From assembly GCA_022824735.1 (NCBI GenBank), contig JAJDZI010000056.1, forward strand, positions 1 through 40,523: DNA of 40,523 nt, in the 5' to 3' direction. The translations under genes and the position numbers were made by a program. How positions within the stretch are numbered: the stretch's first letter is position 1; every line of letters starts with the position of its first letter. The notes below the pieces were generated by a model. The model ran no database searches. It was not told the DNA's origin and saw only the letters and a list, made by a program, of their open reading frames with translations. Positions 9,776 through 24,923 of this stretch are shown here, piece by piece. Source of the DNA: Nitrospirales bacterium. Its GTDB lineage: Bacteria > Nitrospirota > Nitrospiria > Nitrospirales > UBA8639.

Positions 9776-10786
9776 GTGCCTCGGGAGCTCTCTCTCGCAG
9801 AAATATTTCAGATCGGATATTACTGGGAGACGAAAATTCTCCTCACGGCGATCAAGCTGGATCTTTTTTCGGCTTTGGACGGCCGGTCAGATTCGCCCTC
9901 TGACCTAGCCAAGCGTTTATCTCTGGATGAACGGGCGTTGAGCCTCGTCTTGCACGCATTGGTAGCGATGCGGATCCTGACCAAACACGAAGGGCGCTTT
10001 GCAAATACCAGCGTGGCCCGGAAGCACCTGGTGAAGGTCAGCCCGGATTACGTGGGTCATCTGCTGGTTCTGCACGACTCGGAATGGATGAATTGGGGAA
10101 AACTGGAAGAGGCCGTCCGGACCGGCGCGTCTCCGGTCCGGCAGCACGTCTTTGAGACCGACCCGGAGATGGGCGCCAACGTGTTGGCGGTGTTGGACCG
10201 GATCGGCCGGGGGAGCGGCGTCACCCTCGCGAAGGTGCTGCAACTGAACGGCGTGGACCGGATGCGGATGCTGGACGTCGGCGGGGGAGCCGGGACCAAT
10301 GCGATTGCCTTTTGCCGGGAGTATCCCCATCTCAGCGCCACGGTGTTTGATCTGCCTGCAACCCTCCAGGTGACCGAACGGTCGATCAAGGAAGCCGGGT
10401 TGGAGGATCGAATTGCCGTCATGCCGGGCAACTTCAATACGGATTCATTGGGCGGTCTCTATGACCTGGTGCTTTTGTCCGACGTGCTCCATTACCAGGA
10501 CGCGCAAGCCAACGCCGCATTGGTGCGCAAGGCGTTTGCTCACCTCGCGGACGCGGGCCGGTTGGTCATCAAGGACCGGTTTTTGGATCCGGATCGAACG
10601 AGCCCGGCTTGGACTACGGCCTTTGCCGTGCATATTCTGGTCAATACGGAACAAGGGGATTGCTTCACGACCCGGGAGGCGATGGATTGGATGACCCGGG
10701 CCGGTTTTTCTTCCGTCACGGAACTGGAACCACGGGCGATTGTTCAAGGAATCAAAGGTTCCTCAAATCAGGAGAGAATTCAATGA
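9776..10786 (+). CDS. SAM-dependent class-2 (O-)methyltransferase
   Basis: The GTG at 9776 (GGAGAAAGGA upstream) is chosen because the frame further upstream translates a CCCTCACCC-type repeat. The 336-aa protein has an N-terminal winged-helix dimerisation domain (AIKLDLFSALDGR, LSLDERALSLVLHAL) and a C-terminal Rossmann domain with the SAM-binding motif MLDVGGGAGTNAIAFCREYP and the acidic VFDLP. Downstream SDVLHYQDAQ and GRLVIKDRFLD are typical of the family that includes acetylserotonin O-methyltransferase and the bacteriochlorophyll methyltransferase BchU. The substrate is unknown. Its stop overlaps the start of the DUF420 gene (ATGA), and it heads the oxidase copy 1 operon, so quinone or tetrapyrrole modification is an attractive but unproven role. 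Confidence 0.82.
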   Translation: MPRELSLAEIFQIGYYWETKILLTAIKLDLFSALDGRSDSPSDLAKRLSLDERALSLVLHALVAMRILTKHEGRFANTSVARKHLVKVSPDYVGHLLVLHDSEWMNWGKLEEAVRTGASPVRQHVFETDPEMGANVLAVLDRIGRGSGVTLAKVLQLNGVDRMRMLDVGGGAGTNAIAFCREYPHLSATVFDLPATLQVTERSIKEAGLEDRIAVMPGNFNTDSLGGLYDLVLLSDVLHYQDAQANAALVRKAFAHLADAGRLVIKDRFLDPDRTSPAWTTAFAVHILVNTEQGDCFTTREAMDWMTRAGFSSVTELEPRAIVQGIKGSSNQERIQ

Positions 10787-11499
10787 CCGAATGGTTACGA
10801 GAGCCGGGGTTTGTGGGGACGCATGCGACCATGGGGGCCGATATCAGTCAGTTGATGGCCACGTTGTTCACCGGGTTGTTTATCGTTGGGATGATCCAGG
10901 CCAGAAAGGGTCGCGCGGACGGTCATCATTGGTTGATGCTCGGCGGGATGATTGCCATGCTGGCCTTTTTCGTCAGTTATTATTTGTTTCGCCAGCTTGG
11001 CGTGTTGGCGTTTGAAGGCAAGGAGGGGTTCGGCGGGTCGCAGGCGTTGTACGACAACGTGTTCGTACCCCTGTTGACCTTTCACATTCTTCTGGTCGTG
11101 ATCGGGTTGGTCATGGCTATTTACATGATTGTCCTGGGATTTCGCTCTCAAACGTTTATCAACGGCCGGCGTCAGTTGCAAGAGGCCATCCTGCAAACCA
11201 CCGGAAAAAAAATAGCCGCCATCTTTGGCGGAGTGACGGCGCTCGTGTTGCTGTTGTTTTTCAGTCGCGTGGCGGCCAGCGGTTTTTCCATGGGGAAATT
11301 CGGCGTCTATCTCGGACTCCTTATCCTCATTGCCCTGGTGTTCGGTGTCGAGGTGGGCATTCAACGTTTGTGGCCGAATGGGGCGCGACGACACCGGATC
11401 CTGGGGCGGTTTACCATGGTGGTGTATTGCGTGTTGTTCCTGACCGGCAGTGTGACCTATACCATGCTGTATATCTTGTATCCCGGACGGATCGGATAA
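10783..11499 (+). CDS. DUF420-family membrane protein (oxidase assembly type)
   Basis: The start ATG at 10783 overlaps the methyltransferase stop. The 238-aa protein has about six TM helices. Conserved-looking histidines sit near the membrane faces: H14, H48/H49, H101 and H204 in the ARRHRILGR motif, which is the signature of DUF420. DUF420 includes the Staphylococcus protein CtaM, required for maturation of a haem-copper quinol oxidase, and related proteins occur in many oxidase operons. Its position upstream of bd-like oxidase copy 1 supports a role in building or inserting that oxidase's cofactors. That role is inference from family and context. Confidence 0.78.
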   Translation: MTEWLREPGFVGTHATMGADISQLMATLFTGLFIVGMIQARKGRADGHHWLMLGGMIAMLAFFVSYYLFRQLGVLAFEGKEGFGGSQALYDNVFVPLLTFHILLVVIGLVMAIYMIVLGFRSQTFINGRRQLQEAILQTTGKKIAAIFGGVTALVLLLFFSRVAASGFSMGKFGVYLGLLILIALVFGVEVGIQRLWPNGARRHRILGRFTMVVYCVLFLTGSVTYTMLYILYPGRIG

Positions 11500-11506
11500 C
11501 CCCGTG

Positions 11507-11986
11507 ATGCGCTGTGCCTGTGGCTCGGATTTCCGATGTGAAGCCCTTGAGGAATGGGACGAGGCGCAGGTCTTTCTGCGCTATTACTGTGAACCGTGTG
11601 GGTTTCGTGTGGGAATCGAGACGGACCATCGAGCGGGCGGCGCATTGTTTGACCGTCCGGCCTGGACGGATGAGGCCCGGCATCGGTTGGACCGGCTTCC
11701 CCCGTACGTGGAGCCTCTTGTCCGGCGGGACGTGGAAGATTATGCGAATCGAAACGGTTTCACCGTGATCTCGACCGGCGTCATGACGGAAGCCGGTACC
11801 CAGGGGATGGTGTCCTGGCATCCCGAGGCGAAGCAACGGTTGTCGCGCGTGCCGGGGCCGGTTCGCGCGATGGCGCGCGTGGAGTTGGAGCGGACGGCCC
11901 AGGACAGGGGCCTCCCCGAAGTGACGGTGGAGTTGATGGAAGAAATCAAGGCCCGCTATTTCGGCATGGCCGCCCCGCGGGGGTGA
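11507..11986 (+). CDS. Cys-rich protein with two PCP_red-like domains
   Basis: The N-terminus carries a cysteine cluster (C3, C5, C11, C28, C31) that looks like a zinc-binding or Fe-S knuckle. It is followed by two tandem copies of a small helical domain: WTDEARHRLDRLPPYVEPLV (residues 53-72) and WHPEAKQRLSRVPGPVRAMA (104-123). The second continues with EVTVELMEEIKARYFGM. The motif (W/P)-x-EA-xx-RL-xRVP-xxVR resembles the PCP_red domain found at the end of light-independent protochlorophyllide reductase subunit B and in stand-alone proteins. The function of the stand-alone forms is unknown. It starts 7 bases after the DUF420 gene. A GTG 3 bases upstream is an alternative start. Confidence 0.68.
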   Translation: MRCACGSDFRCEALEEWDEAQVFLRYYCEPCGFRVGIETDHRAGGALFDRPAWTDEARHRLDRLPPYVEPLVRRDVEDYANRNGFTVISTGVMTEAGTQGMVSWHPEAKQRLSRVPGPVRAMARVELERTAQDRGLPEVTVELMEEIKARYFGMAAPRG

Positions 11987-12101: not shown

Positions 12102-13190
12102 ATGCTGCATCGACTGGCACTCCGGGTGATTCCCCAACTGAACGCGATCGTGACGGAACCCGGCGTTCGCCGGCGCAAGCGCTGGGTGATGCTCGCTCCG
12201 GGGTTTGTGGCGTTTGTCCTCTATCGTCTCTTGAAAGACGTGCTGCCCTTATCCGACCCGCTGGCGTTGTTGGCGTTCAGCGGCGTCCTTTCGACGCTCA
12301 CCGCGTATTGGGCCTATGCGATGGGACGCGGGGAGCCGTTGCTCCGGATTTGCCGGACCGATCACCCACGTCGTCTTTTCTGGATCGGCGGATGGATCGG
12401 GTTCGTCTACGGCGTGCAACTTTCGTTGCTGGTGCTGGCGATCCTGGCGCTCTTTGTCGATTACAATTTCCTGGTTCATCCCGAAGGTCCGGCCATGATG
12501 GCCCTCATCATCCCCTGTACGTCGGTCACTCGTGACGCCTTTGAAATCGGGCACGTGGTTCGGATGGAAGCCCAAGGCGCAAGGCTGGTGACCTTTCCCG
12601 ACGGCGGATCGCTTCGTGAATTGCTTCAACGCGACTGGCTTCATGCGGCCCCATGGGTGGTTACGGGAATCGTCGCCGGCGGGGGCACCGCGGTCCTGTC
12701 CCGGCTCGGCTGGGCCGTCAACGGGGGGGAAGCCGGTCCGGCAATTCTGGTCTGTATCGTGGCGGCATTTTGCGCCCATGGAGCTTTCTTATCCGGGAAA
12801 CGTCCTCTCGACAACTTCCCTGATCGTTTCAGAATAGAGTCGTGGTTGGAAGCCTGCCGGTTTTGGGCGTGGCCGTGTTTGACTTTTGCATTCACATACT
12901 ATTTAGTGCAGTTCGGCCTCATCGCCTTTGTGTTGCGGGTTGAGGACGCGGCCCTTTTCGTTCACCTGGCGGTTGGCGGGGTCACCGCGGGGATGATGGC
13001 CGGGTACGGCTATTTCCTGGGGGCCCGGGTGTTTGTGGAGGCGCAAACGCAAGGCGGTATCTCCGAAGGCTTGAAACGGTGTCCGTTCGTGATGGAAATT
13101 TTAGCCAAAACCGGGTGGGTGACATCGGAACGGAAGGGAGCGCCCGTCGAGATCAGTCAGGGGGAACCTTCACGAGAGATGCTTTCATGA
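12102..13190 (+). CDS. polytopic membrane protein of unknown function
   Basis: The 362-aa protein has roughly seven to eight hydrophobic segments, grouped as residues 30-75, 92-140 and 185-320, separated by a cytoplasmic-looking loop (DAFEIGHVVRMEAQG, residues 149-163). I do not recognise the family. Its stop overlaps the start of the oxidase by 4 bp (ATGA), so the two are almost certainly translated together. A role as partner, assembly factor or extra membrane subunit of oxidase copy 1 is the simplest reading. The predicted ribosome site is weak, and the hairpin repeat at 12006-12081 lies just upstream. Confidence 0.65.
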   Translation: MLHRLALRVIPQLNAIVTEPGVRRRKRWVMLAPGFVAFVLYRLLKDVLPLSDPLALLAFSGVLSTLTAYWAYAMGRGEPLLRICRTDHPRRLFWIGGWIGFVYGVQLSLLVLAILALFVDYNFLVHPEGPAMMALIIPCTSVTRDAFEIGHVVRMEAQGARLVTFPDGGSLRELLQRDWLHAAPWVVTGIVAGGGTAVLSRLGWAVNGGEAGPAILVCIVAAFCAHGAFLSGKRPLDNFPDRFRIESWLEACRFWAWPCLTFAFTYYLVQFGLIAFVLRVEDAALFVHLAVGGVTAGMMAGYGYFLGARVFVEAQTQGGISEGLKRCPFVMEILAKTGWVTSERKGAPVEISQGEPSREMLS

Positions 13191-15037
13191 AAACCGGCCT
13201 GCCTGTTTTCCTGTTGTGCGTGCTGGGTGTTGTGCTTGCCGCGCCGGTGGCGGGGTGGGCCGGTCAGGATGCTGCCGCCCTGACCGAGGACGTCTATTAC
13301 AAGACCGACGGAATCCCTCAAAGCCCTCCGGCCACGGAAACCGGATCCACCTACCCGCAATGGCAACCGCTCAATAACCGGATCATCATCTGGCTCGTCA
13401 CGCAGCAGCATACCTATTTCGGCGGGTTCGTCCTGGCCCTGCCGTTGTTTGCGTTTCTCCTGGAATTATTGGGCCTGACGCGCCGTGATCCACAGGCAGC
13501 CCAACGGTACGACGGCCTGGGCCGCGACATTCTTCGCGTCGGGGTGGTTTCGCTTTCGGTGACGGCCCTGCTCGGCAGCCTGATGCTTGGGGCGTTCATC
13601 ACGTTCTATCCCGTGTTCATGACGTACATGGGGTCCACGTTCAAACAGATGATGCCGTTGTACGCCGCGGTGTTTTTGGGGGAATCCTTCCTCCTGGTGT
13701 TGTACTACTACAGTTGGGACCGCCTGGCCCAAGGCGCGGGGAAATGGGTGCATTTGTCGATCGGGGTCGTGGCGAACGGCATGGGCGTGATGTTGCTCCT
13801 GCTGGCCAATGCCTGGGCGTCGTTCATGATGGCGCCCGCGGGCGTGAACGCCGAAGGCCAATTTCTGGGGAACGTCTGGCATTTGTTGCATTCGCCGTTA
13901 TGGAATCCGCTGAACGCCCACCGGTTCCTGGCGGATATCATGTCCGGCGGGGCCGTTGTCGTGGCCTATGCCGCGTACCGGTTTTTGAAGACTCACGTCC
14001 GGGAGGAGCGGGCCTATTACGATTGGGTGGGGTACGTGTTCATCGTCGTGGTGGTGTGCGCGTTGCTTCCCATGCCCTTTGCCGGATACTGGCTGATGCG
14101 TTCCGTGTTCGAATTCCGTCAGGAGATGGGGATGACCATGATGGGCGGATTGTTGTCCTGGCTGTTCGTGGTCCAGGCCACCACCATCGGCGCGTTGTTT
14201 CTCGGCATCAATTATTACATCTGGCAGTCTCTGGGACGGTTGCGTGACGGGGAACGGTATCATCCTTATTTCAAATTTATTCTCGGCGGGCTGATGATGT
14301 CGTTCCTGGTCTGGTTCACCCCCCATACCATTGCCATGACGCCGAGCGAAATGAAAGCCATGGGCGCGGCGCAACATCCGGTGATCGGACAGTTTGGGGT
14401 GATGTCGGCGAAAAACGGCGCCATCAACGTCATGATCTGCCTGACCGCCTTGAGCTACCTGCTGTATCGTCGCGCCAATCGCATCATGACCGTGCCGTGG
14501 GCCGCGGCGGGAAACGCGGCGATCGGGGCGTTGTTTGCCGTGGGTATCGCCAATATCGTCTGGGTCTCGGTGTACGGGTTTTTCATTCCCGCTCACGTTC
14601 GGGTCGGCCTCTCCATTCCGCAGGGGGCCACCACGGCGACGGTCCTGATCGGGGGGTTGGTGCTCAATCATTTTCTGTTGAAGGGGAGCGAGATTCGGGG
14701 TCCCATCCAATGGGGCGGGATATCCGTGCGCGGGATGGTGGCGTTGTTCGGGGTCGCCGCGACCTTTTCCTGGGTCATGGGGTTGATGGGGTATATCCGG
14801 TCGGCCGGCCGGTTGGGATGGCACGTCAATGAGCTGATGGCCGACGTTTCCCCTTGGGCGTTTACTCCTGCCATCACGTTTGCGGCCAAAATGGTGACCA
14901 TCAACATGGTGTTGTTCTGGGCTTCGGTGTTTTTCATGTTTTGGCTGGCCACCCGGGACAAACGGCCGGCCGTCGTGGAAAAGGACGAACCGGGCATGTC
15001 GTTCGCGCAGGCGTTCTCCCGGGAGGAATCGGTATGA
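13187..15037 (+). CDS. cytochrome bd-like oxidase, divergent copy 1
   Basis: The start ATG at 13187 overlaps the upstream stop. The 616-aa protein has a signal-peptide-like N-terminus, the motif EDVYYKTDG (34-42), then about 13-14 TM helices. The N-terminal half resembles the CydA family of bd quinol oxidases, with H75 in TQQHTYFGGF, E166, H189, H232/H235 and H245 as candidate haem or proton-path residues. The C-terminal half is unlike CydB and has H380 (FTPHTIAMTP), H397 and H546. Such long bd-like oxidases have been reported in Nitrospira as the probable terminal oxidase. Compared with copy 2 at 18701, the core is colinear with a constant 40-residue offset. Three histidines of copy 2 are replaced here: P157, I454 and P561. 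It may have lost a metal centre or changed substrate. DUF420, DUF3047 and FGE-fold genes surround it. Confidence 0.85.
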   Translation: MKTGLPVFLLCVLGVVLAAPVAGWAGQDAAALTEDVYYKTDGIPQSPPATETGSTYPQWQPLNNRIIIWLVTQQHTYFGGFVLALPLFAFLLELLGLTRRDPQAAQRYDGLGRDILRVGVVSLSVTALLGSLMLGAFITFYPVFMTYMGSTFKQMMPLYAAVFLGESFLLVLYYYSWDRLAQGAGKWVHLSIGVVANGMGVMLLLLANAWASFMMAPAGVNAEGQFLGNVWHLLHSPLWNPLNAHRFLADIMSGGAVVVAYAAYRFLKTHVREERAYYDWVGYVFIVVVVCALLPMPFAGYWLMRSVFEFRQEMGMTMMGGLLSWLFVVQATTIGALFLGINYYIWQSLGRLRDGERYHPYFKFILGGLMMSFLVWFTPHTIAMTPSEMKAMGAAQHPVIGQFGVMSAKNGAINVMICLTALSYLLYRRANRIMTVPWAAAGNAAIGALFAVGIANIVWVSVYGFFIPAHVRVGLSIPQGATTATVLIGGLVLNHFLLKGSEIRGPIQWGGISVRGMVALFGVAATFSWVMGLMGYIRSAGRLGWHVNELMADVSPWAFTPAITFAAKMVTINMVLFWASVFFMFWLATRDKRPAVVEKDEPGMSFAQAFSREESV

Positions 15038-15669
15038 AGACGGGACGTCTGCTCGTCGCGTGTCTGTCCCTGTTTGTGTGTTGTGTTCCCATGCTGCCCG
15101 GAACGGCTTTCTCACAGGTCGTGACGCTGGAAAATTTTGAAAGTCCCGATGAAGAGCAGTTCCCGAAAGGATGGGACGGGTCCCGAAGTACGATCACCGC
15201 CAGAGAGGCCTATGCCGTTCACCGGGAAGAGGATACGGCGTTCCTGAAAGGCAAGGGGGCGAACCAGCGTGTGTACACCAAGAACGTTGATTGGGATCCC
15301 CGCACTCACCCTATTCTCACGTGGCGGTGGCGCCTGCACGCCGTCCCGGAGAAGGCGGAATTCCTTGCGGCGGTTTTTGCGAACCTGGATACGGACCTGA
15401 TGTTTATTCCGGTGTCCACGAAGTACGTCTGGAGCGGCACGAAAGCCAAGGGATCGGTCACGGACGGCGGCATGTTCGGCGCGGCGGAGGTGGTGGTGCG
15501 TTCGGGCGCGCAGCCGGTGGGTGAATGGGTGGAAGAAGAGGTCAACGCGTACGAGGATTTCAAGGAGATCCATCAACATGAACCGGCCGAGCGGGCATGG
15601 GGTCTTTCCCTGCAAAGCGGCCCGGGGGTGGAAATCGATTTCGGTTCGATCGAGGTGCGGGCAGAATAA
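15034..15669 (+). CDS. exported DUF3047-family protein
   Basis: The start overlaps the oxidase stop (ATGA). The 211-aa protein has a signal peptide ([20 protein letters not shown]). Its body contains [39 protein letters not shown] and a C-terminal [20 protein letters not shown]. This pattern of a beta-sandwich with a W-x-W core and a closing GSIEV strand is that of DUF3047 proteins. Their function is unknown; the fold suggests carbohydrate-binding-like or protein-binding roles in the periplasm. Tight coupling to oxidase copy 1 suggests it acts on or with the periplasmic face of that complex. Confidence 0.72.
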
Positions 15670-15719
15670 GGCCTCGCGGTCGCGCGGCGACAAGGAGATC
15701 GGCAATTTCTAAAGGAACC

Positions 15720-16082
15720 ATGATAGACGTCGTCCTTGGCGTGGCGGTCATGGGGACGGTCGGGGTGCTGATCGGCATTCTCCTGGGCGGCTCCTTTCTC
15801 TATTTCGCGTCGGGCCTTGGAGTCCTGTTGGGGGCGGGGATCGGTCTCATTGGCGGACGCCGGTTTTTTCTCGGTATTTTTGTCGGTACGCTTTTGGGGG
15901 GTGCGCTGGCCTGGGCCGTTTCCGGACCGGAAAATATCACGGTCGGCGCGGGGTCCGGCGCGGCGATGGGCGGATTTTTGGGGATTTGGATCTCCATGTT
16001 GATCGACGTGTTTTGGAGAAAACCCGTGCAGGCCGCTCCCGACCACGAAGCGGAGGCGGGGACGGGAAGCGGAGGCGGTTGA
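15720..16082 (+). CDS. small Gly-rich membrane protein
   Basis: The start ATG at 15720 follows AAAGGAACC. Upstream in-frame starts are rejected because they overlap the DUF3047 gene. The 120-aa product has four hydrophobic stretches rich in glycine ([20 protein letters not shown], residues 15-34, then GLIGGRRFF and [17 protein letters not shown]) and a short acidic, Gly-rich tail. Glycine-zipper packing is likely. No family is recognised. It sits between the DUF3047 gene and two membrane-anchored FGE-fold genes, all on one transcript. Confidence 0.6.
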
Positions 16083-16104
16083 CCGTTTATCGGGGATCAG
16101 GGTT

Positions 16105-17028
16105 ATGGAAAATCGCGGGGTGCTGATCGGGTCCATCATCTTTGTGTTTGCTTCGTTCATCCTGATGATGGTGATGCTGATCTATGAAACGTATAAGGGG
16201 CAGCAGGAATTGGACCGGCTGGTATCGAAGTCGCAGACGACCAAGCCCCGGGTCATCGCTCCGGTGAAAGTCCAGGATTTTTCCATGTATCGGACGATGG
16301 TCGGCAATGAAGGCCGTGAGATGGTCGAGATTCCCGAAGGCCCCTTTACCATGGGCAATGATCAGGGCGATCCCGATGAAGCGCCGGCTCATCCGGTGTA
16401 CGTGCGGACGTATTTCATCGATTTGAAGGAAGTCACCCAATCGGAATACGCGCGTTTCGTCAAGATGACCAAGCGGGAGCAGCCCCAGGTGCCGGTTTTT
16501 GAAGAAGACATTGCGAAACTCGTTGACCCGGACTTTCCCGTCGTGGGGATCGGCTGGAACGATGCCTTCGGGTATTGCCGGTGGGCCGGGAAACGATTGC
16601 CGACCGAAGCCGAATGGGAGAAAGCCGCTCGCGGCGAAGGGCGGCGGCTCTACCCCTGGGGGAATGAGTTCAGCTACATGGTTTCCAATATTGACGGGGA
16701 AGAGGACGGGTTTCAATATCTGTCGCCGGTCGGGTCTTTTGAGGGCGGGCGGAGTCCGTATGGGGTTTACGATATGACGGGCAACGTGGCGGAATGGGTG
16801 GCGGATACGTATGATGTCCAATATTATCAGAATTCGCCGTTTCGCGACCCTCCCGGTCCGGACAGTACGGAATTCAAGGTCATTCGCGGCGGGACCTGGC
16901 GCGATTCCAAACTCAACGCGAGATTGACCAAACGGTTTTCGGCCAAAATGTGGCGAACCGACGCGACAATCGGCTTCCGGTGCGCCCAGGACGTCGAGAC
17001 CGCCGAGACTGTCGAACAGGCACCCTGA
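16105..17028 (+). CDS. membrane-anchored FGE-sulfatase-fold protein 1 lacking catalytic Cys
   Basis: The 307-aa protein has an N-terminal TM anchor (VLIGSIIFVFASFILMMVML, residues 5-24), a linker, and an FGE-sulfatase (SUMF1) domain from about residue 70. Family landmarks are present: MVEIPEGPFTMGNDQGDPDE, the GKRLPTEAEWEKAARG motif, LYPWGNEF, SPYGVYDMTGNVAEWVADTY and the closing IGFRCAQ. The RGGTWRDSKLNARLTKRF segment, where true formylglycine-generating enzymes carry a Cys pair, has none, so sulfatase activation is unlikely. Non-catalytic FGE folds serve as binding or scaffold proteins. Its place beside bd-like oxidase copy 1 suggests a periplasmic structural or assembly subunit. Confidence 0.83.
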   Translation: MENRGVLIGSIIFVFASFILMMVMLIYETYKGQQELDRLVSKSQTTKPRVIAPVKVQDFSMYRTMVGNEGREMVEIPEGPFTMGNDQGDPDEAPAHPVYVRTYFIDLKEVTQSEYARFVKMTKREQPQVPVFEEDIAKLVDPDFPVVGIGWNDAFGYCRWAGKRLPTEAEWEKAARGEGRRLYPWGNEFSYMVSNIDGEEDGFQYLSPVGSFEGGRSPYGVYDMTGNVAEWVADTYDVQYYQNSPFRDPPGPDSTEFKVIRGGTWRDSKLNARLTKRFSAKMWRTDATIGFRCAQDVETAETVEQAP

Positions 17029-17064
17029 CGATCCCGGAGCGGGGGCTATTGAGGTTCCGCGCCC

Positions 17065-17979
17065 ATGGACGGAAGACTGAAACTGATCCTGCTTGCCGTG
17101 ATCTTATTCATGGTGGGCATGCCGGTATCGGGCATTCTGCGCGGGACCAAGGCTCCGCCGCCTGACCCCGAACTTGCAGAGGTCGTCGAACCCCTTGGGG
17201 AGACCGGCGATTCCCTGTCCGATCCCTCCCGGCCGATCCTCCCCGAAGACATGGTGTTCATCCCTCCCGGACAGTTCGTCCAGGGGACCAGCCAGGGCGG
17301 GTTCAATGAACGTCCCGAACGTGTCGTGACCCTTGACGGATTCTGGATCGATCGCTATGAGGTCACGAACCACCATTATCTCCGGTTTGTGGAACAGACC
17401 GGACACCGCAAACCCGGTCCTCCTTCCCGCTATGCCAGACGGTTGGCCCAATTGCGCGGGCCCAACCAGCCGGTGGCTTACGTCTCCTGGCATGATGCCG
17501 ATGCGTATTGCCAATGGAGGGGAAAACGCCTACCCGGGGAAGCGGAATGGGAAAAGGCCATGCGGGGGATTGACGGCCGGTTATGGCCCTGGGGGAATTC
17601 TCCGCGAATCCACAAAGCCAACCTGGGCGGGGTGGAGGACGGCTATGAAGCGACGGCGTCGGTTGGTTCGTTCCCATTGGACCGAAGTCCGTATGGTGTG
17701 TACGACGGCTTTGGCAACCTCATGGAATGGACCCATAATTGGTATGAAGAGCAAGTTCGGCATCCCAATGAGCCCGAACCCGAAGAGGCGAATTTTGCCG
17801 ATCGCGGAGGGTATAAGACCCTGCGCGGCGCCGGATATACCAGTTACGGCAACGATTTGCGGATTACAGCCCGGAGTTTCATGGTTCCCGACTTTCGCGA
17901 CGAAACCATAGGCTTCCGCTGCGTGGCGTCAGAGCAAAAACCGTCGGCCCACACGCTTCTCGGAAGTAGCGAAGGCTAA
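17065..17979 (+). CDS. membrane-anchored FGE-sulfatase-fold protein 2 lacking catalytic Cys
   Basis: This is a 304-aa paralogue of the preceding gene, 36 bases downstream. It has an N-terminal TM segment (LKLILLAVILFMVGMPVSGI), a Pro-rich linker, then MVFIPPGQFVQGTSQGGFNE, the GKRLPGEAEWEKAMRG motif, SPYGVYDGFGNLMEWTHNWY and a closing ETIGFRCVASEQ. The segment LRGAGYTSYGNDLRITARSF again lacks the cysteines needed for formylglycine formation. Two adjacent, diverged copies suggest a heterodimer or two distinct docking subunits on the periplasmic side. It is the last gene before a 120-bp hairpin element. Confidence 0.83.
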   Translation: MDGRLKLILLAVILFMVGMPVSGILRGTKAPPPDPELAEVVEPLGETGDSLSDPSRPILPEDMVFIPPGQFVQGTSQGGFNERPERVVTLDGFWIDRYEVTNHHYLRFVEQTGHRKPGPPSRYARRLAQLRGPNQPVAYVSWHDADAYCQWRGKRLPGEAEWEKAMRGIDGRLWPWGNSPRIHKANLGGVEDGYEATASVGSFPLDRSPYGVYDGFGNLMEWTHNWYEEQVRHPNEPEPEEANFADRGGYKTLRGAGYTSYGNDLRITARSFMVPDFRDETIGFRCVASEQKPSAHTLLGSSEG

Positions 17980-17991
17980 AGGAGCCTCTGA

Positions 17992-18111
17992 TTTACTGTG
18001 ATAGCGGGATGCAGGGCAAGGCGTCCCGGAGCGAAACCCGAAGCTTATCATCGAGATAGGTGAGGGTTGAGCGAGGACACAACGCAGCCCTGCGCCCGAT
18101 AGTGCAGTAAA
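17992..18111. repeat. 120-bp imperfect inverted-repeat element
   Basis: The left arm begins TTTACTGTGATAGCGGGATG and the right arm, reverse complemented, begins TTTACTGCACTATCGGGCGC. Both then continue into CAGGGC. The whole element can fold on itself. It lies at the boundary between the copy 1 and copy 2 oxidase regions and is followed by a fragment of the MITE-like repeat (about 18115-18146). No ORF is inside. Confidence 0.6.
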
Positions 18112-18148
18112 CATGTCCTCGACGTTCTTAATCGGGGATCAGAGGTTC

Positions 18149-18253
18149 CTAGAGGAAGTCGAAGTAGTAGAGGATCAGAAAGACGGCCAAAAGAATATTG
18201 ACAACCATTCCGGCCAACACTATAATGTCGAACAATTTTGCGTTATTGCGCAT
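18149..18253 (-). CDS. 34-aa single-TM mini-protein (minus strand)
   Basis: The reverse strand from ATG 18253 to TAG 18149 encodes a short charged start (MRNNAKLFD), one long hydrophobic helix (IIVLAGMVVNILLAVFLILY) and the end YFDFL. The codons are unbiased and the preceding ribosome site is weak (GGTAAG). The clean one-helix layout with charged flanks is nevertheless what a small membrane subunit looks like. It is divergent from the two mini-ORFs at 18357 and 18499. Confidence 0.45.
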   Translation of the reverse strand: MRNNAKLFDIIVLAGMVVNILLAVFLILYYFDFL

Positions 18254-18294
18254 TGTCTTACCGTATCCGCGAACAGTGGTTGTTGAGTACCACA

Positions 18295-18322
18295 TCTTGA
18301 AGAAATGTGTCAAGAGTATAAT
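18295..18322 (+). promoter_or_regulatory. candidate promoter with inverted repeat for the oxidase copy 2 operon
   Basis: A perfect -10 TATAAT (18317-18322) is preceded directly by the inverted repeat TCTTGA-N9-TCAAGA (18295-18300, 18310-18315). No well-spaced -35 is visible, so an activator bound at the repeat is conceivable. It lies 35 bases upstream of the first mini-ORF of this operon. Confidence 0.4.
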
Positions 18323-18356
18323 TTATTAAGGTCAAACATCTAGAAGGAAGATCAAG

Positions 18357-18470
18357 ATGGCAAAAAGTGATCCGCTTCCGATCAAGCTGGGCAAGGCGAT
18401 TTTCTATGTGACCTGCGCCGTGAGCTTGTGGTTCTTTTATTGGTTTGCCGGCATACAATGCCCTTGTTGA
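18357..18470 (+). CDS. 37-aa single-TM mini-protein upstream of bd-like oxidase
   Basis: The ATG at 18357 follows AGAAGGAAG with suitable spacing. The product starts MAKSDPLPIKLGKAIFYVTC, continues with an aromatic helix AVSLWFFYWFAGIQ and ends CPC. One TM helix with positive residues at the start predicts N-in topology. Known bd oxidases use tiny single-helix subunits (CydX/CydH type), and this ORF has the right size, position and topology, although no sequence match to CydX is apparent. It lies 28 bases upstream of the next mini-ORF. Confidence 0.62.
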   Translation: MAKSDPLPIKLGKAIFYVTCAVSLWFFYWFAGIQCPC

Positions 18471-18498
18471 AGAAGGGAACTGAAGGGGAGGAGTTTCT

Positions 18499-18615
18499 AT
18501 GCAAACCGTTCTGTACCTCATCATCTCGATCGTGATCTCCGTGGCATATTTTCAGTTCATCGACTGGGCTCTGATGGATATGCAGGGGTTGGACTATTTC
18601 TACATTCTGAGGTAA
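18499..18615 (+). CDS. 38-aa single-TM mini-protein upstream of bd-like oxidase
   Basis: The ATG at 18499 is preceded by GGGGAGGAG, a strong ribosome site with 6-base spacing. The product is MQTVLYLIISIVISVAYFQF followed by IDWALMDMQGLDYFYILR: one TM helix and a short amphipathic, aromatic C-terminus. It ends 85 bases before oxidase copy 2 and is on the same strand. The strong ribosome site and location make it a likely real small subunit or assembly factor of the oxidase. Confidence 0.65.
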   Translation: MQTVLYLIISIVISVAYFQFIDWALMDMQGLDYFYILR

Positions 18616-18700
18616 GCACTAATCAGTCGTCATTCTGAAAAACGCAACTATAAAGGCTTATTGTTCTTTGAGTAATTTCAAAGAAAGAAGGAGGTTGGTC

Positions 18701-20665
18701 ATGGGTCGCCTCACGAGTGGACGGGCCGGGAAGAAATTTCTGGCAGTCACCGGTCTTTTTGCAATGGGAGCCATGTTGTTGCTCCCGATTTTTGTGGCAC
18801 TGCCGGCGTTGGCCGGCGGGGGTGCTCCCGCAGCAGGCGGGCCGCCTCCGGACGTCGTAGCCGCCCAGGAAGCCGAAGGCGCCGAAGGCGAAGAAGCCAA
18901 GGTCGAAATCGGCAGGGACGTCTACTACAAAACGGAAGGTCCGGTCGTTGGCGCGCCGGCTCCCAAGACTCAAGATACGGCAGAATTTTATCCCCGGTAC
19001 AACTTCGAAAGCCGGGTTCTTCTTTGGGTCGCCAACCAACAGCACCTGTACTATGGCAGCTTTGTGCTGGCCGTCCCGATTTTCTGTATGTGTATCGAGT
19101 TTGCCGGGTTGGTGAGTAAAGACAAGGAGATGGCGAAGAAGTATGACCAATTGGCTTATGACTTCATCAAAATCAGCCTGACCGCGTACTCGCTGACGGC
19201 CATCCTCGGTGGTATTCTCATCTTCACCTTCCTGACGTTGTATCCCGCCTTCTTTGGTTATCTTTCCAGTATTTTCCGTCCCGTGATGCATATCTATGCG
19301 TTGATGTTTGTGGCGGAAAGCGGAACCCTCTACATCTATTACTACGGGTGGGACAAGATGAAAGAGGGGATGTTGAAATGGCTGCACGCCAGCATGTCCG
19401 TCGTGCTGAACGTGATCGGGACGGTGTTGATGTTCCTGGCCAATTCCTGGATCGGTTTCATGATGTCGCCAGCCGGCGTCGATGAGCAGGGCCGGTATCT
19501 TGGTAATATCTGGCACGTGCTGCATACGGCGCTCTGGAATCCATTGAACGTGCACCGGATTCTCGGGAATATGGCTTTCGGCGGCGGCGTGGTGGCGGCC
19601 TATGCCGCTTACCGGTTCCTGTCGGCGAAGAATGATGAGGAGCGCGCGCATTACGATTGGATGGGGTATATCGCCATGGCCCTCGGGGTTGCCTTCCTGA
19701 TTCCCCTCCCGTTTGCCGGCTATTGGCTCATGCGCGAGGTGTATGCCTATCGTCAACAAATGGGTATTACCTTGATGGGCGGGTTGCTGGCCTGGTTGTT
19801 CATCATTCAGGCTACCATGATCGGCATCCTGTTCCTGACGACGAACTACTACCTCTGGCAGGCGCTCGGACGAATGACTGGAGGTGAGCGGTTCCAACGC
19901 TATATCAAGTACTTCGTGTTTATTCTGGTCGTGGGTCTCCTGGTCTTTATTACCCCGCATACCATCGTCATGACGCCGGCTGAGTTAAAGGCCATGGGCG
20001 GTCAGCAGCATCCGGTACTGGGGAACTATGGCGTGATGTCGGCTAAAAACGGCGGCATTAACGCGATCATCATGACCACGATCGCCAGTTTCATATGGTA
20101 TCAACGCGGTAACAGGGTGCCCGCGGTAAAATGGGCGAAGTTCGGGAATATCTTCCTGATCACGTTCTTTGTGGTGGCCCATCTGAACAATATCTGGGTG
20201 GCCTGTTACGGGTACTTCATCCCTGCGAACGTGCGAATCGGTCTCTCGGTTCCACAGGTCGCCGGTACATTGTCCTGCCTGTTTATCGGTTCGGCCTTGA
20301 ACCTGGCCATGTTGAAGCAGTCCAGGGAACTTGGGCCGATCCGGTGGGGTCAGATTGCGCCGCGTTCACAGTATGCCCTGATTATGCTGGCAACGGCCTT
20401 TACATGGATGATGGGACTGATGGGGTATATCCGGTCGTCCGTGCGGTTGTTCTGGCACGTCAATGAGATTATGCGTGACAATTCGCCATGGGCGTACACG
20501 CATACCATTGGTTTTGGGGCCAACGTGATCTCCTTTAACGTGTTGTTCTTCTGGATCACGATCATGTTCGTCTTTTGGCTTGGGGCACTGGGAGCCAAGA
20601 AAGCGCCCGTGCCTGCGACGCAGCCCGTTCCGGGTACCGCGCCGCAACCTGCAACTGGTCATTAA
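18701..20665 (+). CDS. cytochrome bd-like oxidase, copy 2 (probable main terminal oxidase)
   Basis: The ATG at 18701 follows GAAGGAGG. The 654-aa protein has an N-terminal signal/TM segment, an Ala/Gly/Pro-rich periplasmic stretch, GRDVYYKTEG (71-80), then about 13-14 TM helices. Conserved candidates shared with copy 1 are H115 (NQQHLYYGSF), E206, H229, H272/H275, H285, H420 (ITPHTIVMTP), H437 and H586 (FWHVNE). Histidines unique to this copy are H197, H494 and H601, which may complete a metal site. The N-half is CydA-like; the C-half is not CydB-like. In Nitrospira such proteins are proposed to reduce O2. Two mini-ORFs upstream and cytochrome c genes downstream suggest a complex that takes electrons from cytochrome c, not only from quinol; this is inference. 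Confidence 0.88.
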   Translation: MGRLTSGRAGKKFLAVTGLFAMGAMLLLPIFVALPALAGGGAPAAGGPPPDVVAAQEAEGAEGEEAKVEIGRDVYYKTEGPVVGAPAPKTQDTAEFYPRYNFESRVLLWVANQQHLYYGSFVLAVPIFCMCIEFAGLVSKDKEMAKKYDQLAYDFIKISLTAYSLTAILGGILIFTFLTLYPAFFGYLSSIFRPVMHIYALMFVAESGTLYIYYYGWDKMKEGMLKWLHASMSVVLNVIGTVLMFLANSWIGFMMSPAGVDEQGRYLGNIWHVLHTALWNPLNVHRILGNMAFGGGVVAAYAAYRFLSAKNDEERAHYDWMGYIAMALGVAFLIPLPFAGYWLMREVYAYRQQMGITLMGGLLAWLFIIQATMIGILFLTTNYYLWQALGRMTGGERFQRYIKYFVFILVVGLLVFITPHTIVMTPAELKAMGGQQHPVLGNYGVMSAKNGGINAIIMTTIASFIWYQRGNRVPAVKWAKFGNIFLITFFVVAHLNNIWVACYGYFIPANVRIGLSVPQVAGTLSCLFIGSALNLAMLKQSRELGPIRWGQIAPRSQYALIMLATAFTWMMGLMGYIRSSVRLFWHVNEIMRDNSPWAYTHTIGFGANVISFNVLFFWITIMFVFWLGALGAKKAPVPATQPVPGTAPQPATGH

Positions 20666-20732: not shown

Positions 20733-20747
20733 TTGTGGAGGGGCAAA

Positions 20748-22067
20748 GTGGTTGAATTACTTACGGAAGCAATTTCGATTGGATGGCCGGCATTCGCCTT
20801 TTTGATAGGGCTGCTCTTTTATTTTCAAGCCAAAGCGACTGATCCCGCTCAAAAAAAGAATGTCACGTTCAAGACGTTTATCGGCATGTTGTGCGCACTC
20901 ATGGCTTTTATTGCCATTGCGAATTACAAGAATAATTTCTATGGAGAAAGCCGCTTGCTGCCTGTCTCTTTGGTGATGATTACGTTCCTGGCCTATATCA
21001 TGGGCATCTATTTCACCAATATCGGGGCACTCATGAAAATCGGCGGCTTTATGTTTTTCGTGGCTGCGGCCTTGTCCGGGTATGGTAATTGGTTGCCCCA
21101 GGTGGAAGGGGGATTCCCGCCGCCGGAAGTCAAGCTGGACTTCCAGAGCATGACGTCCCAGCAGTTGGGTGACGAGGGCGAAAAGATTATCTTCGGCGGT
21201 CTTGGCCAGAGTAAAGTTCAGGGCGCAATCGGGAAAGGCCAGTGTCCTCTCTGTCACGGTTTCAACCAGGGCTTCCTGAGTGAACGGGCCCCGAATTTGT
21301 GGGACGTTCCTGCTCGAGCCGAAGAACGGTTGAAACACGAAAAATATCATATGAACGATCCGGGTTCGCGTGACACCGTGCAAAAGGAAGCGTTTGAGGG
21401 TTCCGGGACGGCGACGACCGGCCAGGAGTATATCGCCGAGTCTCATGCTTGCCCCAGTTGTTTTGTCGTCCCCGGATTCGGCGTGAAAGGAACGAATGAC
21501 ACGGAAAGCCCGATGCCGAGAATCCATAAGCCACCCATTTCTCTGACTATTGGCGAGTTGGCGGCCGTGGATACGTGGCTGTACGTTCGGGAAGGGAAAG
21601 AAGCGCCGACGTACGAGGAAATTCAATCGTCGTATGAAAAATTCATTCCCGAAGCTGACCGGCCCCAGGCGAGTGCCGAAGGGGATGAAGGCGCCGCCGG
21701 CGGTGTGCTGGCCACTGGTGAAGAGCCGATTACGGACCTCTTCATGAAAGCCGGATGTCCGGCCTGTCATACGATTCCAGGGATTGAAGGGGCAACCGGA
21801 AAAGTCGGTCCCCTCTTGATGGAAGGCAGTAATGCTCCCAAGCGGTTGAAGGATCCGGGGTATGCGGGTCATGCCACGTCGGCTCGTGAATACATTACCG
21901 AGTCGATTTTGAATCCGAGCATGTATGTGGTGAAGGATTTCCCGGATAACCAGATGCCGAAAGATTTCGGACTGAAACTCAGCGCGGGAGCCGTTAATAA
22001 AATCGTGGATTACCTGTCCAGCTTGAAGGAAGGACAGGATTTGCCATCATTGGAAGATTTTAATTAA
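20748..22067 (+). CDS. membrane protein with two cytochrome c domains
   Basis: The GTG at 20748 has GGAGGGG 4 bases upstream. The in-frame TTG at 20733 would sit inside the hairpin and is rejected. The 439-aa product begins with four TM helices (roughly residues 10-28, 42-60, 70-90, 94-112), then a periplasmic part with two c-type domains. Haem sites are CPLCH (166-170) and CPACH (337-341), with probable Met ligands at M256 (SPMPRIH) and M403 (NQMPKDF). A third cysteine pair, C235-P-S-C238-F, lacks the histidine; in the second domain the aligned stretch is NPSMY, so this is an added Cys pair and not a lost haem. The gene lies 82 bases after oxidase copy 2 and probably supplies electrons to it. 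Confidence 0.85.
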   Translation: MVELLTEAISIGWPAFAFLIGLLFYFQAKATDPAQKKNVTFKTFIGMLCALMAFIAIANYKNNFYGESRLLPVSLVMITFLAYIMGIYFTNIGALMKIGGFMFFVAAALSGYGNWLPQVEGGFPPPEVKLDFQSMTSQQLGDEGEKIIFGGLGQSKVQGAIGKGQCPLCHGFNQGFLSERAPNLWDVPARAEERLKHEKYHMNDPGSRDTVQKEAFEGSGTATTGQEYIAESHACPSCFVVPGFGVKGTNDTESPMPRIHKPPISLTIGELAAVDTWLYVREGKEAPTYEEIQSSYEKFIPEADRPQASAEGDEGAAGGVLATGEEPITDLFMKAGCPACHTIPGIEGATGKVGPLLMEGSNAPKRLKDPGYAGHATSAREYITESILNPSMYVVKDFPDNQMPKDFGLKLSAGAVNKIVDYLSSLKEGQDLPSLEDFN

Positions 22068-22107: not shown

Positions 22108-23073
22108 ATGACCTGGTTAAAGTTAGTCGAAGGCTACATGCCGATGCAGATGATTTCGGAGTTGGCCTGTTCGATTCTGGTGTTTGCGCTGATCAACTGG
22201 TCGCTGAATCGGGCGGGCATGGGCATTCCCAAGTTCTGGGCGGGGGTAGGCGTGTGGATCTACATCCAGCTCTATTTGAAATACCGCATTTATCCGCCGA
22301 TCCCCTTCAGTGTGCGAGCGATTTACGGGACGGTGTCCGCCTGTGGCATTTTCATGTGGGTGTCCGGGTCGGAAGACGCGTGGCAGGAATTCAAGCGGCC
22401 GGTGATCAACGTGATGGATGGCATCAGCGGGTTTCACAAGAGTATGCGCACCGTGGCGTTGATTGTCATTCCGCTGGCGTTGGGCGGCTTTGCCTATAAC
22501 TCGTTCCTGCCCAGTTTTGAAGAACCCATCGAGTTGCGGACCGTGCATCCGGCGCCGCCGGCCACGACGAAAGTGCACGGGAAGACCTTTGTGCTGCAAG
22601 TGGTCGAGAACCCCTATCGAGTGAACAACGAGGGGAAGTACGATCAGGCGTACACGGACGCGCGGATCGTGGAGCAGGCCATGGGGCGGTTGATGAAGGA
22701 CGTGAATGACCCGAATTACAACCCGTGGGATCCCAATGCCGAAGGCTATACCAAGTACGTGCGGGAAGGGGGCGAGATCTTCTTTCAGAACTGCCACTTC
22801 TGTCACGGGGACAACCTGAACGGGCGGGGCTTATGGGCGTACGCCTTCAACCCGATTCCGGCGAACTTCACGGATGCGGGTACGATTGCCCAGTTGCAGG
22901 AGACGTTCGTGTTCTGGCGGGTCTCGAAAGGCGGGATCGGCCTGCCTGGTGAAGGGTTCCCATGGGCCTCGGTGATGCCGCCCTGGGAGCAACACCTGAC
23001 GGTGGATGAAATCTGGAAAGTGGTCATGTTCGAATATTGGCACACGGGCTACTATCCCCGGACCTGGGATTAA
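22108..23073 (+). CDS. membrane-bound monohaem cytochrome c
   Basis: The ATG at 22108 follows ACAGGAG. The 321-aa protein has four hydrophobic helices in its first 130 residues (SELACSILVFALINWSL, FWAGVGVWIYIQLYL, AIYGTVSACGIFMWVSG, VALIVIPLALGGFAY). A periplasmic domain follows, with one haem motif CHFCH (229-233), NLNGRGLW, and a likely axial M290 in ASVMPPWEQHLTVDEIW. The layout parallels the preceding gene, with an N-terminal four-helix part then haem c, suggesting they form a complex together with the dihaem EB_dh protein 23 bases downstream. The function as an electron-transfer subunit is inferred from the haem site and operon. Confidence 0.85.
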   Translation: MTWLKLVEGYMPMQMISELACSILVFALINWSLNRAGMGIPKFWAGVGVWIYIQLYLKYRIYPPIPFSVRAIYGTVSACGIFMWVSGSEDAWQEFKRPVINVMDGISGFHKSMRTVALIVIPLALGGFAYNSFLPSFEEPIELRTVHPAPPATTKVHGKTFVLQVVENPYRVNNEGKYDQAYTDARIVEQAMGRLMKDVNDPNYNPWDPNAEGYTKYVREGGEIFFQNCHFCHGDNLNGRGLWAYAFNPIPANFTDAGTIAQLQETFVFWRVSKGGIGLPGEGFPWASVMPPWEQHLTVDEIWKVVMFEYWHTGYYPRTWD

Positions 23074-23096: not shown

Positions 23097-24923
23097 ATGA
23101 GCAAGAGCAGATATGGAAGTCACTTGGCCCGGTGGGGCGTGTGCTTGAGCGTGAGTGTGCTGCTGGGGTTGGGGCTGCCCCTGAGCAGTGGCGCACAGGA
23201 AGACCTGCCGGAAGGGTTTAAACAGCAGGGCCTGCCGTCGCCCCCGCCTGCGGAGCAGATCGAGGCAGGCAAGCGAGTCTATTTTACCAAATGTGTGTGG
23301 TGTCACGGCGTGGAAGGGGCCGGGGACGGGCCTGGCGCAGTGCGGTTGTGGCCCCGACCGCGGAACTTCAACGCGGGCACCTTCAAGATCCGGCACACGG
23401 CCAGCGGGCAGTTGCCCCTGATTGACGTGGACCTGCTCCAAACGGTCACGCACGGCCTGCCGGGGTCGGCCATGCCGTCGTGGGAAGGCATTCTCACCGA
23501 ACAACAGCGCAAGGACGTGCTGGCTTTCGTGACCACCCAACTGGTCCAGGATCGGTCGTGGCAGGACGAAGAATTTGAAGAACTCTTTGTGTTGCAGTTG
23601 GATCAACTCGCCCCGAAACAGAACACCCCGGAGTCTATCAAACGGGGTTCTGAATTGGTGGTGGAAAAGAAATGCATCGAATGTCACGGCCTGGAAGGCC
23701 GGGGCGACGGGAACGCGTTCAACCTCAAGGATGACTGGGGCTTTTCCATCCAGCCGGCGGACTGGCACAAATGCTGGAACTTCCGGGGCAGTCGTCAGGA
23801 TCCGTACAATGTCCGGAACATCTTCCGGACCTTCTCCACGGGGTTGAACGGGACGCCGATGCCCTCGTTTGCGGACAATACCAGCGTGGACGAGCGGTGG
23901 GACATTGCCAACTACGTCAACTCGCTGTGTGAGCGGGCCAATGAGATTCCCGCGCCGCAAGGGCAGGTGAGCGATGAAACGGCGCAGGTCTTCTCCACGG
24001 CGGCGCCCTTGCCGATCGACCCGCTGACGGACAAACCGAAGAGTAACTTCGTGATTCCGTCAAAATTCGTGGAAGGGGATCTCCCGACGGATGAAAACGA
24101 CGAGCGGTGGAAACTGATCCCCCGGCGGTGGTTGGCCATGGGCGGACAGATCACGCACAAACCCCGTAATTTCGTGAACCGCATTGACGACATGTGGGTA
24201 CAGGCACTGTATAACGAAACGCATATCGAATTCATGTTCCGCTGGGATGACCGGACCAAGAGCATTCAGGAAGATGAAGTCGACTGGGATCCCACGGAAG
24301 TGAACCTGGGTGACTATGGCGTTGAGGAACAGGCCCCGCAGGGCACGACGTTTGCCGAAGATCCGTTCCATCAGGAATCGATTGCGGCCAAGCAAAAAGA
24401 CGGCTATTCCGTGTATAACGACGGCGTGGCGTTCCAATTCCCTGTCAAGTGGCAGGAACTGCCGGCCCCGCGGAAACCGCGCTACTTCTGGGGCGATGAA
24501 ACGTTCTCGGTGGACCTGACCAAATGGACGGCAGACGGGACCTTGGGCGTGTATGAAGGAACCGGCTGGGACCAGGACCTCACCGAGTTGGACTTCCAGG
24601 AAGAAGTGGAAGTGGTGAAAGCGGAGTGGGCGAATGGCCGCTGGACGGTGATTGTGAAGCGCCCCTTGAAAGGTGACTACGAAGAAGTGGCGTACCTGGA
24701 GGCTGGCAAATACATCCCGATGGTGTTTTTTGCCTGGGACGGGCACAACGGGGACGTGGGCCGGAAGATGGCCGTGTCGGCGTTCTATTATCTGGTGATG
24801 GAGCCGCCGATTCCGTTGACCACCTACGTGTATCCGGGGTTGATCACGGTCGGTATCGTGATTATCGAAGGCTGGGTGTTGGGCCGCCGCGCCAACCGGC
24901 GGAAGGAAAAAGGCCAGGCCTAA
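23097..24923 (+). CDS. dihaem cytochrome c-EB_dh fusion with C-terminal membrane anchor
   Basis: The start ATG at 23097 (GGAGAGGAGCGGAG upstream) gives a Sec signal peptide. Two cytochrome c domains follow, with CVWCH (66-70)/M126 and CIECH (193-197)/M255. From about residue 310 the sequence looks like the ethylbenzene-dehydrogenase-type haem b domain seen in gamma subunits of type II DMSO-reductase enzymes (MWVQALYNETHIEFMFRWDD, DGVAFQFPV, GTGWDQD, RWTVIVKRPL). A C-terminal TM helix (YPGLITVGIVIIEGWVLG) anchors it. Up to three haems could be held on one polypeptide. It could be an NxrC-like haem relay between nitrite oxidoreductase and the oxidase complex. It is the last gene of the copy 2 operon. 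Confidence 0.83.
   Translation: MSKSRYGSHLARWGVCLSVSVLLGLGLPLSSGAQEDLPEGFKQQGLPSPPPAEQIEAGKRVYFTKCVWCHGVEGAGDGPGAVRLWPRPRNFNAGTFKIRHTASGQLPLIDVDLLQTVTHGLPGSAMPSWEGILTEQQRKDVLAFVTTQLVQDRSWQDEEFEELFVLQLDQLAPKQNTPESIKRGSELVVEKKCIECHGLEGRGDGNAFNLKDDWGFSIQPADWHKCWNFRGSRQDPYNVRNIFRTFSTGLNGTPMPSFADNTSVDERWDIANYVNSLCERANEIPAPQGQVSDETAQVFSTAAPLPIDPLTDKPKSNFVIPSKFVEGDLPTDENDERWKLIPRRWLAMGGQITHKPRNFVNRIDDMWVQALYNETHIEFMFRWDDRTKSIQEDEVDWDPTEVNLGDYGVEEQAPQGTTFAEDPFHQESIAAKQKDGYSVYNDGVAFQFPVKWQELPAPRKPRYFWGDETFSVDLTKWTADGTLGVYEGTGWDQDLTELDFQEEVEVVKAEWANGRWTVIVKRPLKGDYEEVAYLEAGKYIPMVFFAWDGHNGDVGRKMAVSAFYYLVMEPPIPLTTYVYPGLITVGIVIIEGWVLGRRANRRKEKGQA

Follow-up and report, generated by a model that had tools for sequence, protein, structure and literature searches.

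Four bd-like oxidases have been described in Nitrospira, with reverse electron flow or anchoring of nitrite oxidoreductase suggested as a role (PMC6606698; this and the other papers are cited from excerpts). One of them, bd-like_3, is encoded with two cytochromes c and alt_NxrC_2 in all Nitrospira, as is a duplicate, bd-like_4 (PMC6606698). Such proteins have been placed in the OR-N family, and OR-N1 together with OR-N2 was proposed to be a CydAA' (PMC12342949, PMC10839748). The residues of the Q-loop quinol site are stated to be absent from bd-like oxidases (PMC3578206). We analyzed a window of 40,523 nucleotides (positions 1 to 40,523 of contig JAJDZI010000056.1, forward strand, assembly GCA_022824735.1, from a Nitrospirales bacterium) that codes for two such proteins, here copy 1 and copy 2. 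They are the already published Nitrospira pair, bd-like_4 and bd-like_3. A first-pass annotation of the window had read three histidines found in copy 2 and not in copy 1 as a sign that copy 1 lacks a metal centre, uses another electron donor or has a substrate other than O2. We find that this three-histidine difference is a small part of the ordinary divergence between two known paralogues. Two glutamates, E346 of copy 2 and the equivalent of E107 in Escherichia coli CydA, appear from the alignments to be better signs of divergence than the histidines.

13187..15037, plus strand: copy 1, bd-like oxidase subunit of 616 amino acids (PF01654, E 7e-15), ortholog of N. moscoviensis bd-like_4
18701..20665, plus strand: copy 2, bd-like oxidase subunit of 654 amino acids (PF01654, E 1.2e-19), ortholog of N. 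moscoviensis bd-like_3

Both copies score above the PF01654 cut-off of 26.2 bits (54.9 bits for copy 1, 70.6 for copy 2). BLASTP aligns them with 284/572 identities and four gaps, all close to the N-terminus. Beyond these lies a gap-free core of 542 residues that is 50% identical, at the constant offset of 40 that the first-pass annotation had described. In a survey of 245 Nitrospirota genomes, both copies had strong matches in every genome that belongs to the same genus or family as the window, and in almost every one from its order. Copy 1 matches the N. moscoviensis gene in locus L117 at 61%. Like N. moscoviensis, the window encodes the same two genes with two c-type cytochromes and a diheme alt-NxrC, and L117 has them in the same order. 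Unlike the excerpted text of PMC6606698, where the duplicate is 'a few genes downstream', copy 1 is upstream of copy 2 in L117 and in 80/80 loci with both genes. The literature searches made and the excerpt of PMC6606698 gave no residue differences between bd-like_3 and bd-like_4. The two copies resemble OR-N CydA and CydAA' in their CydA-type fold, in the co-occurring cytochrome c genes and in belonging to Nitrospirota; their putative assignment to OR-N rests on ortholog identity and the literature.

Residues separating copy 1 from copy 2

We aligned 214 proteins from open reading frames (ORFs) of at least 540 amino acids, 194 of them distinct and 20 duplicates by their last 480 residues. The distinct rows comprise 76 copy-1 proteins, 100 copy-2 proteins, 13 copy-2-type proteins from other families, three further relatives and one each of the genome's other two bd-like paralogues, c3 and c4. 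For c3 and c4 a separate comparison used 31 rows each; three of the 62 (L180, L197 and L215) are wrong-frame ORFs and the source of odd letters. For the trees and the comparison with more distant relatives these rows and two others in the wrong frame (L216 and L225) were re-picked or dropped.

L005:8446-10158: paralogue c3, beside Rieske/cytochrome b-like genes
L005:14030-15886: paralogue c4, beside cytochrome and NxrC-like genes
19289..19291, plus strand: H197 of copy 2, opposite P157 of copy 1 (13655-13657)
20180..20182, plus strand: H494 of copy 2, opposite I454 of copy 1 (14546-14548), not conserved within copy 2
20501..20503, plus strand: H601 of copy 2, opposite P561 of copy 1 (14867-14869)
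19649..19651, plus strand: H317 of copy 2, opposite Y277 of copy 1 (14015-14017)
14102..14104, plus strand: S306 of copy 1, opposite E346 of copy 2 (19736-19738), a position that is Glu nearly everywhere else in the family

The residue pairs P157/H197, I454/H494 and P561/H601 are exactly as annotated, with a fourth, Y277/H317, overlooked at the time. Each copy has 12 His in its core. Eight are common to both (115, 229, 272, 275, 285, 420, 437 and 586 in copy 2 numbering), four are private to copy 2 (197, 317, 494 and 601) and four to copy 1 (270, 359, 470 and 495). Since 8 of 12 His are kept at 50% overall identity, above the average column, three differing His are not beyond chance. His 115, 229, 285, 420, 437 and 586 are near-invariant in both copies, and copy 1 retains Met354/Met359 alongside the eight shared His.

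The first-pass annotation had asked whether the three positions co-vary by clade, and two of them do separate the clades. H197 is His in 97/100 copy-2 proteins (the other three have Ala), in 13/13 copy-2-type proteins and in 0/76 copy-1 proteins (Pro in 74/76). H601 is His in 99/100 copy-2 proteins, with one gap, and in 0/76 copy-1 proteins, where it is always Pro (76/76). H494 does not follow: of the 100 copy-2 proteins only 11 have His there, against 70 with Tyr and 14 with Gln; variability within copy 2 is what the first-pass annotation itself had named as speaking against its reading. The fourth position, H317, is His in 100/100 copy-2 and Tyr in 76/76 copy-1 proteins.

H197 and H601 are also uncoupled from one another. 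H601 occurs without H197 in 3/100 copy-2 rows and in two more distant relatives, L235 and L236, where position 197 is Trp or Leu; in the other more distant Nitrospirota relatives 197 is likewise not His, and 601 is Pro. Position 601 is His in seven and Asn in six of the 13 copy-2-type rows, so that H197 is paired with Asn601 in 6/13 of them. In the other paralogues position 601 is Pro (31/31 c4, 29/31 c3), while at position 197 most c4 rows have Leu/Ile/Met and c3 has Ala. Because H197 and H601 are absent from c3 and c4 they are not family-wide metal ligands, and in these alignments they look to be marks of copy-2-type proteins. The three His do not form one set, and since the widely conserved His are still present in copy 1, and the private His are symmetric between the copies, the loss of a metal centre from copy 1 is unsupported.

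Copy 1 does look divergent, as first proposed, but at positions other than the three His. Among the 194 columns at least 97% conserved in both copies, 29 are fixed differences. The E346 column is non-Glu in 76/76 copy-1 proteins (Ser in 64, Ala in 12), and Glu in 100/100 copy-2 proteins, 13/13 copy-2-type proteins, 30/31 c4 and 29/31 c3. E206, which aligns with E. coli E107, is changed in 11/76 copy-1 proteins, with one further gap, and kept in 100/100 copy-2 proteins. Position 584 is Phe in 98/100 copy-2 proteins, His in 28/31 c4 and varied, mostly small, in copy 1.

The ratio of nonsynonymous to synonymous substitution rates (dN/dS) in six genome pairs is 0.078-0.195 for copy 1 and 0.013-0.031 for copy 2, with the synonymous rate in L036 high (2.95) for copy 2 and saturated for two other genes. 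Copy 1 is under weaker but clear purifying selection, constrained and not decaying. A pseudogene reading of copy 1 is refuted by a dN/dS well below 1.

Fold and ancestry

AlphaFold models were built from alignments of 47 rows (A2) and 45 rows (A3). Both copies have a mean predicted local distance difference test score of 72, with predicted template modelling scores of 0.73 and 0.75. The copy 2 model matches E. coli bd-II CydA (7ose_A) with Z 31.7 and a root-mean-square deviation (rmsd) of 3.8 over 348 aligned residues, and the copy 1 model matches CydA 5doq_A with Z 24.0 and an rmsd of 3.9 over 353. The models predict a CydA fold for both copies. Membrane subunits of alternative complex III rank lower among the structural matches.

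The copies share the fold of E. coli CydA (6rko/6rx4), whose H19 and E107 are opposite H115 and E206. They differ from it in that E99 is opposite Tyr199, both are longer and their genome has no CydB match. In an hhalign alignment that is weak (probability 40%), H197 is opposite A97 of E. coli CydA, two residues before E99, and H285, a putative counterpart of E. coli H186, falls three residues from it. In the predicted helices of copy 2, H197 is at the start of helix 193-215 and H601 lies just before helix 603-630, while H494 is inside helix 479-504. By these helices H197 and H601, both at helix ends, are expected to face the same side of the membrane, which from the known CydA topology we take to be the periplasm.

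The trees leave room for either a gain of the two His in copy 2 or a loss in copy 1. A quick tree of 104 rows joined all copy-2-type rows (Shimodaira-Hasegawa-like approximate likelihood ratio test 88). A more careful tree of 52 rows, made without nine long or redundant rows and without all c3 rows, did not join them. In approximately unbiased (AU) tests neither a single clade of copy-2-type proteins (p 0.194) nor a late duplication in Nitrospirales (p 0.413) was rejected. As the trees disagree and neither hypothesis is rejected, gain and loss are both compatible with the data.

Gene order and the other bd-like proteins

The cluster begins with a methyltransferase, followed by DUF420, PCP_red and unassigned proteins, copy 1, a DUF3047 protein, a small protein, two FGE-sulfatase-domain proteins and copy 2. 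After copy 2 come two c-type cytochromes, an alt_NxrC_2-like protein, a MobA-like protein and ArgS.

10780..11499, plus strand: DUF420 protein (PF04238), upstream of copy 1, 76/80 paired loci
11504..11986, plus strand: PCP_red-domain protein (PF08369, E 1.7e-26), upstream of copy 1, 78/80 paired loci
12102..13190, plus strand: unassigned membrane protein directly before copy 1, no Pfam match, 80/80 paired loci
15034..15669, plus strand: DUF3047 protein (PF11249) directly after copy 1, 80/80 paired loci
16105..17028, plus strand: first FGE-sulfatase-domain protein between the copies (PF03781, E 2e-57), 80/80 paired loci
17065..17979, plus strand: second FGE-sulfatase-domain protein between the copies (PF03781, E 5.9e-55), 80/80 paired loci
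20733..22067, plus strand: c-type cytochrome with two CxxCH and one conserved CxxC-Phe/Tyr, the first cytochrome after copy 2
22108..23073, plus strand: c-type cytochrome with one CxxCH
23097..24923, plus strand: alt_NxrC_2-like protein with two CxxCH and an ethylbenzene-dehydrogenase/dimethyl sulfoxide (DMSO)-reductase-II gamma domain

We examined 120 loci. In all 80 that have both genes, copy 1 lies upstream at a distance of 5033-6045 bases from copy 2, and on its strand; many of the 40 without the pair are short contigs or from outside Nitrospirales. Of 15 window genes tested against L117 from N. moscoviensis, 14 are present in order, the fifteenth query (15718-16079) being out of frame. 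The contrast drawn by the first-pass annotation, with cytochromes beside copy 2 and assembly-like genes beside copy 1, stands. Cytochrome and NxrC-like genes follow copy 2, different genes surround copy 1, and none of the genes tested around copy 1 has a CxxCH. FGE-type genes also precede the copy-2-type gene in six outgroup loci from other families, next to which no copy-1 ortholog was found. The FGE genes can therefore be assigned to copy 2 with at least equal right.

The PCP_red protein (11504-11986) is short, and its C-terminal domain resembles the one in protochlorophyllide reductase subunit B (PF08369; the TIGR01278 match falls below the cut-off). In the 20733-22067 cytochrome a third CxxC lies between the two CxxCH and is followed by Phe (37 loci) or Tyr (72). 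Its Cys pair is kept in 108/109 aligned loci, so this third motif is no error but a conserved feature, either heme-like without the His or a disulfide. Near the contig end, 38443-40205 codes for a NapG-like ferredoxin and a type II DMSO-reductase-family chaperone, as expected near nitrite oxidoreductase genes.

The window's own genome (2.3 Mb, 98% complete, 151 contigs) encodes four bd-like proteins and has no match to PF00115, the heme-copper subunit I, or to PF02322, the canonical CydAB partner CydB. The four are therefore the only oxidase candidates these families reveal. Paralogues c3 and c4 form a co-directional pair about 5.6 kb apart, with similar spacing in many other Nitrospirales genomes. 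One Nitrospira variant is reported to carry the full set of heme and Cu residues known from heme-copper oxidases; that of the conserved cluster has a Gln and a Phe instead (PMC8026999). That passage gives no residue numbers, and we would map its Gln and Phe to Q436 and F584 of copy 2. By this mapping of our own the candidate CuB/high-spin heme ligand positions are Q396/G544 in copy 1, Q436/F584 in copy 2 and His/His in 28/31 c4. The His pair of the heme-copper-like, NIDE0901-like variant is thus at those positions in c4 and not in copies 1 or 2. Paralogue c4 resembles copy 2 in His 115, 229, 285, 317, 420, 437 and 586 and in the conserved Glu residues. It differs from copy 2 in having His at the Q436 and F584 positions, Pro at 601 and mostly Leu/Ile/Met at 197. 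Of the four proteins c4 best fits the published putative terminal oxidase (bd-like_2, NIDE0901-like).

Possible roles of copy 1

Our tentative preference is to see in copy 1 a putative CydA'-like subunit, a partner or an alternate, that binds heme but is catalytically simplified. Copy 2 would then form, with the two c-type cytochromes and alt_NxrC_2, an electron-transfer complex of which it is the heme-bearing core in the membrane. On this view copy 1 would not be an enzyme missing a three-His metal centre. H197 and H601 would be features of copy 2, probably connected with contacts to its own partners or with local chemistry on one side of the membrane. This assignment draws on the published pair, the gene order kept in 80/80 loci, the predicted CydA folds, the shared His, the changes at E346, E206 and 584, the dN/dS values and the lack of PF00115 and PF02322 matches.

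Several observations weigh against a partner role. No copy-1 ortholog was found next to the gene in the six copy-2-type loci, so copy 2 manages without copy 1 there; in two of these loci, L064 and L065, another bd-like gene lies nearby. The model confidence is moderate, and the segment right after E346 is among the weakest. The likely CydAA' of the literature is OR-N1/OR-N2 with a NIDE0901-like OR-N2, which in the excerpts fits c4 and not copy 2 (PMC12342949, PMC10839748). An independent enzyme that uses a new donor would also account for the faster evolution and the loss of E346.

The nearby bd-like genes in L064 (10692, plus strand) and L065 (11181, minus strand), both of family f5, lie on the strand opposite the copy-2-type gene and have Tyr at 197 and Pro at 601.

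That independent enzyme is the main rival, possible if rather unlikely. Copy 1 would be an active oxidoreductase with another donor or acceptor and its own upstream assembly genes (DUF420, PCP_red and the unassigned protein). The upstream block is conserved in 76-80 of 80 loci, and purifying selection, the retained heme-ligand-type His and the 29 fixed differences all fit such an enzyme. The loss of E346 in 76/76 proteins and the changed E107-equivalent in 11/76 suggest a reduced catalytic demand instead, and the tested genes on its side include no CxxCH gene. At low O2 most electron-transport proteins are reported at similar abundance; the copy 1 ortholog is not named in the excerpt (PMC8115632).

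We consider it doubtful that H197 and H601 form a site of copy 2 only, at one membrane face, which was dropped by copy 1 or was never part of it. Such a site might, for example, dock a cytochrome, belong to a proton path or bind a metal through two ligands. Both His are fixed in copy 2, their predicted helix ends are expected on the same side, and the cytochrome genes follow copy 2 alone, but the two are uncoupled across relatives and H197 is opposite an Ala in E. coli CydA, by the weak alignment given above. Likewise unlikely is a second CydAA'-like heterodimer made of the two copies and reserved for the alt_NxrC_2/cytochrome c branch, with copy 1 as the non-catalytic half. The branch might, for example, carry reverse electron flow from nitrite, and copy 1 would be marked by the lost E346 and the repeatedly lost E107-equivalent. 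The arrangement would parallel bd-like_1/bd-like_2 of the same genome, likewise about 5.6 kb apart.

That copy 1 lost a metal centre with H197, H494 and H601 as ligands, the first-pass reading, is very improbable. H197 and H601 are clade-fixed, and they could be true losses had the pair arisen late inside Nitrospirales, as the AU test allows; but only 11/100 copy-2 proteins have H494, the other two His are uncoupled and missing from the genome's remaining paralogues, and the His counts are symmetric between the copies. A decaying pseudogene is hardly credible, for although copy 1 evolves faster than copy 2 it is in place in 80/80 paired loci.

By what route Nitrospira sends electrons from nitrite to O2, and uphill to quinone, is not settled. 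In a genome with no heme-copper or CydB match the bd-like proteins must bear that load, or something unrecognised does. For this pair the histidine idea is to be dropped, and E346 and the E107-equivalent are the concrete residues with which to ask whether copy 1 is an enzyme or a partner subunit.

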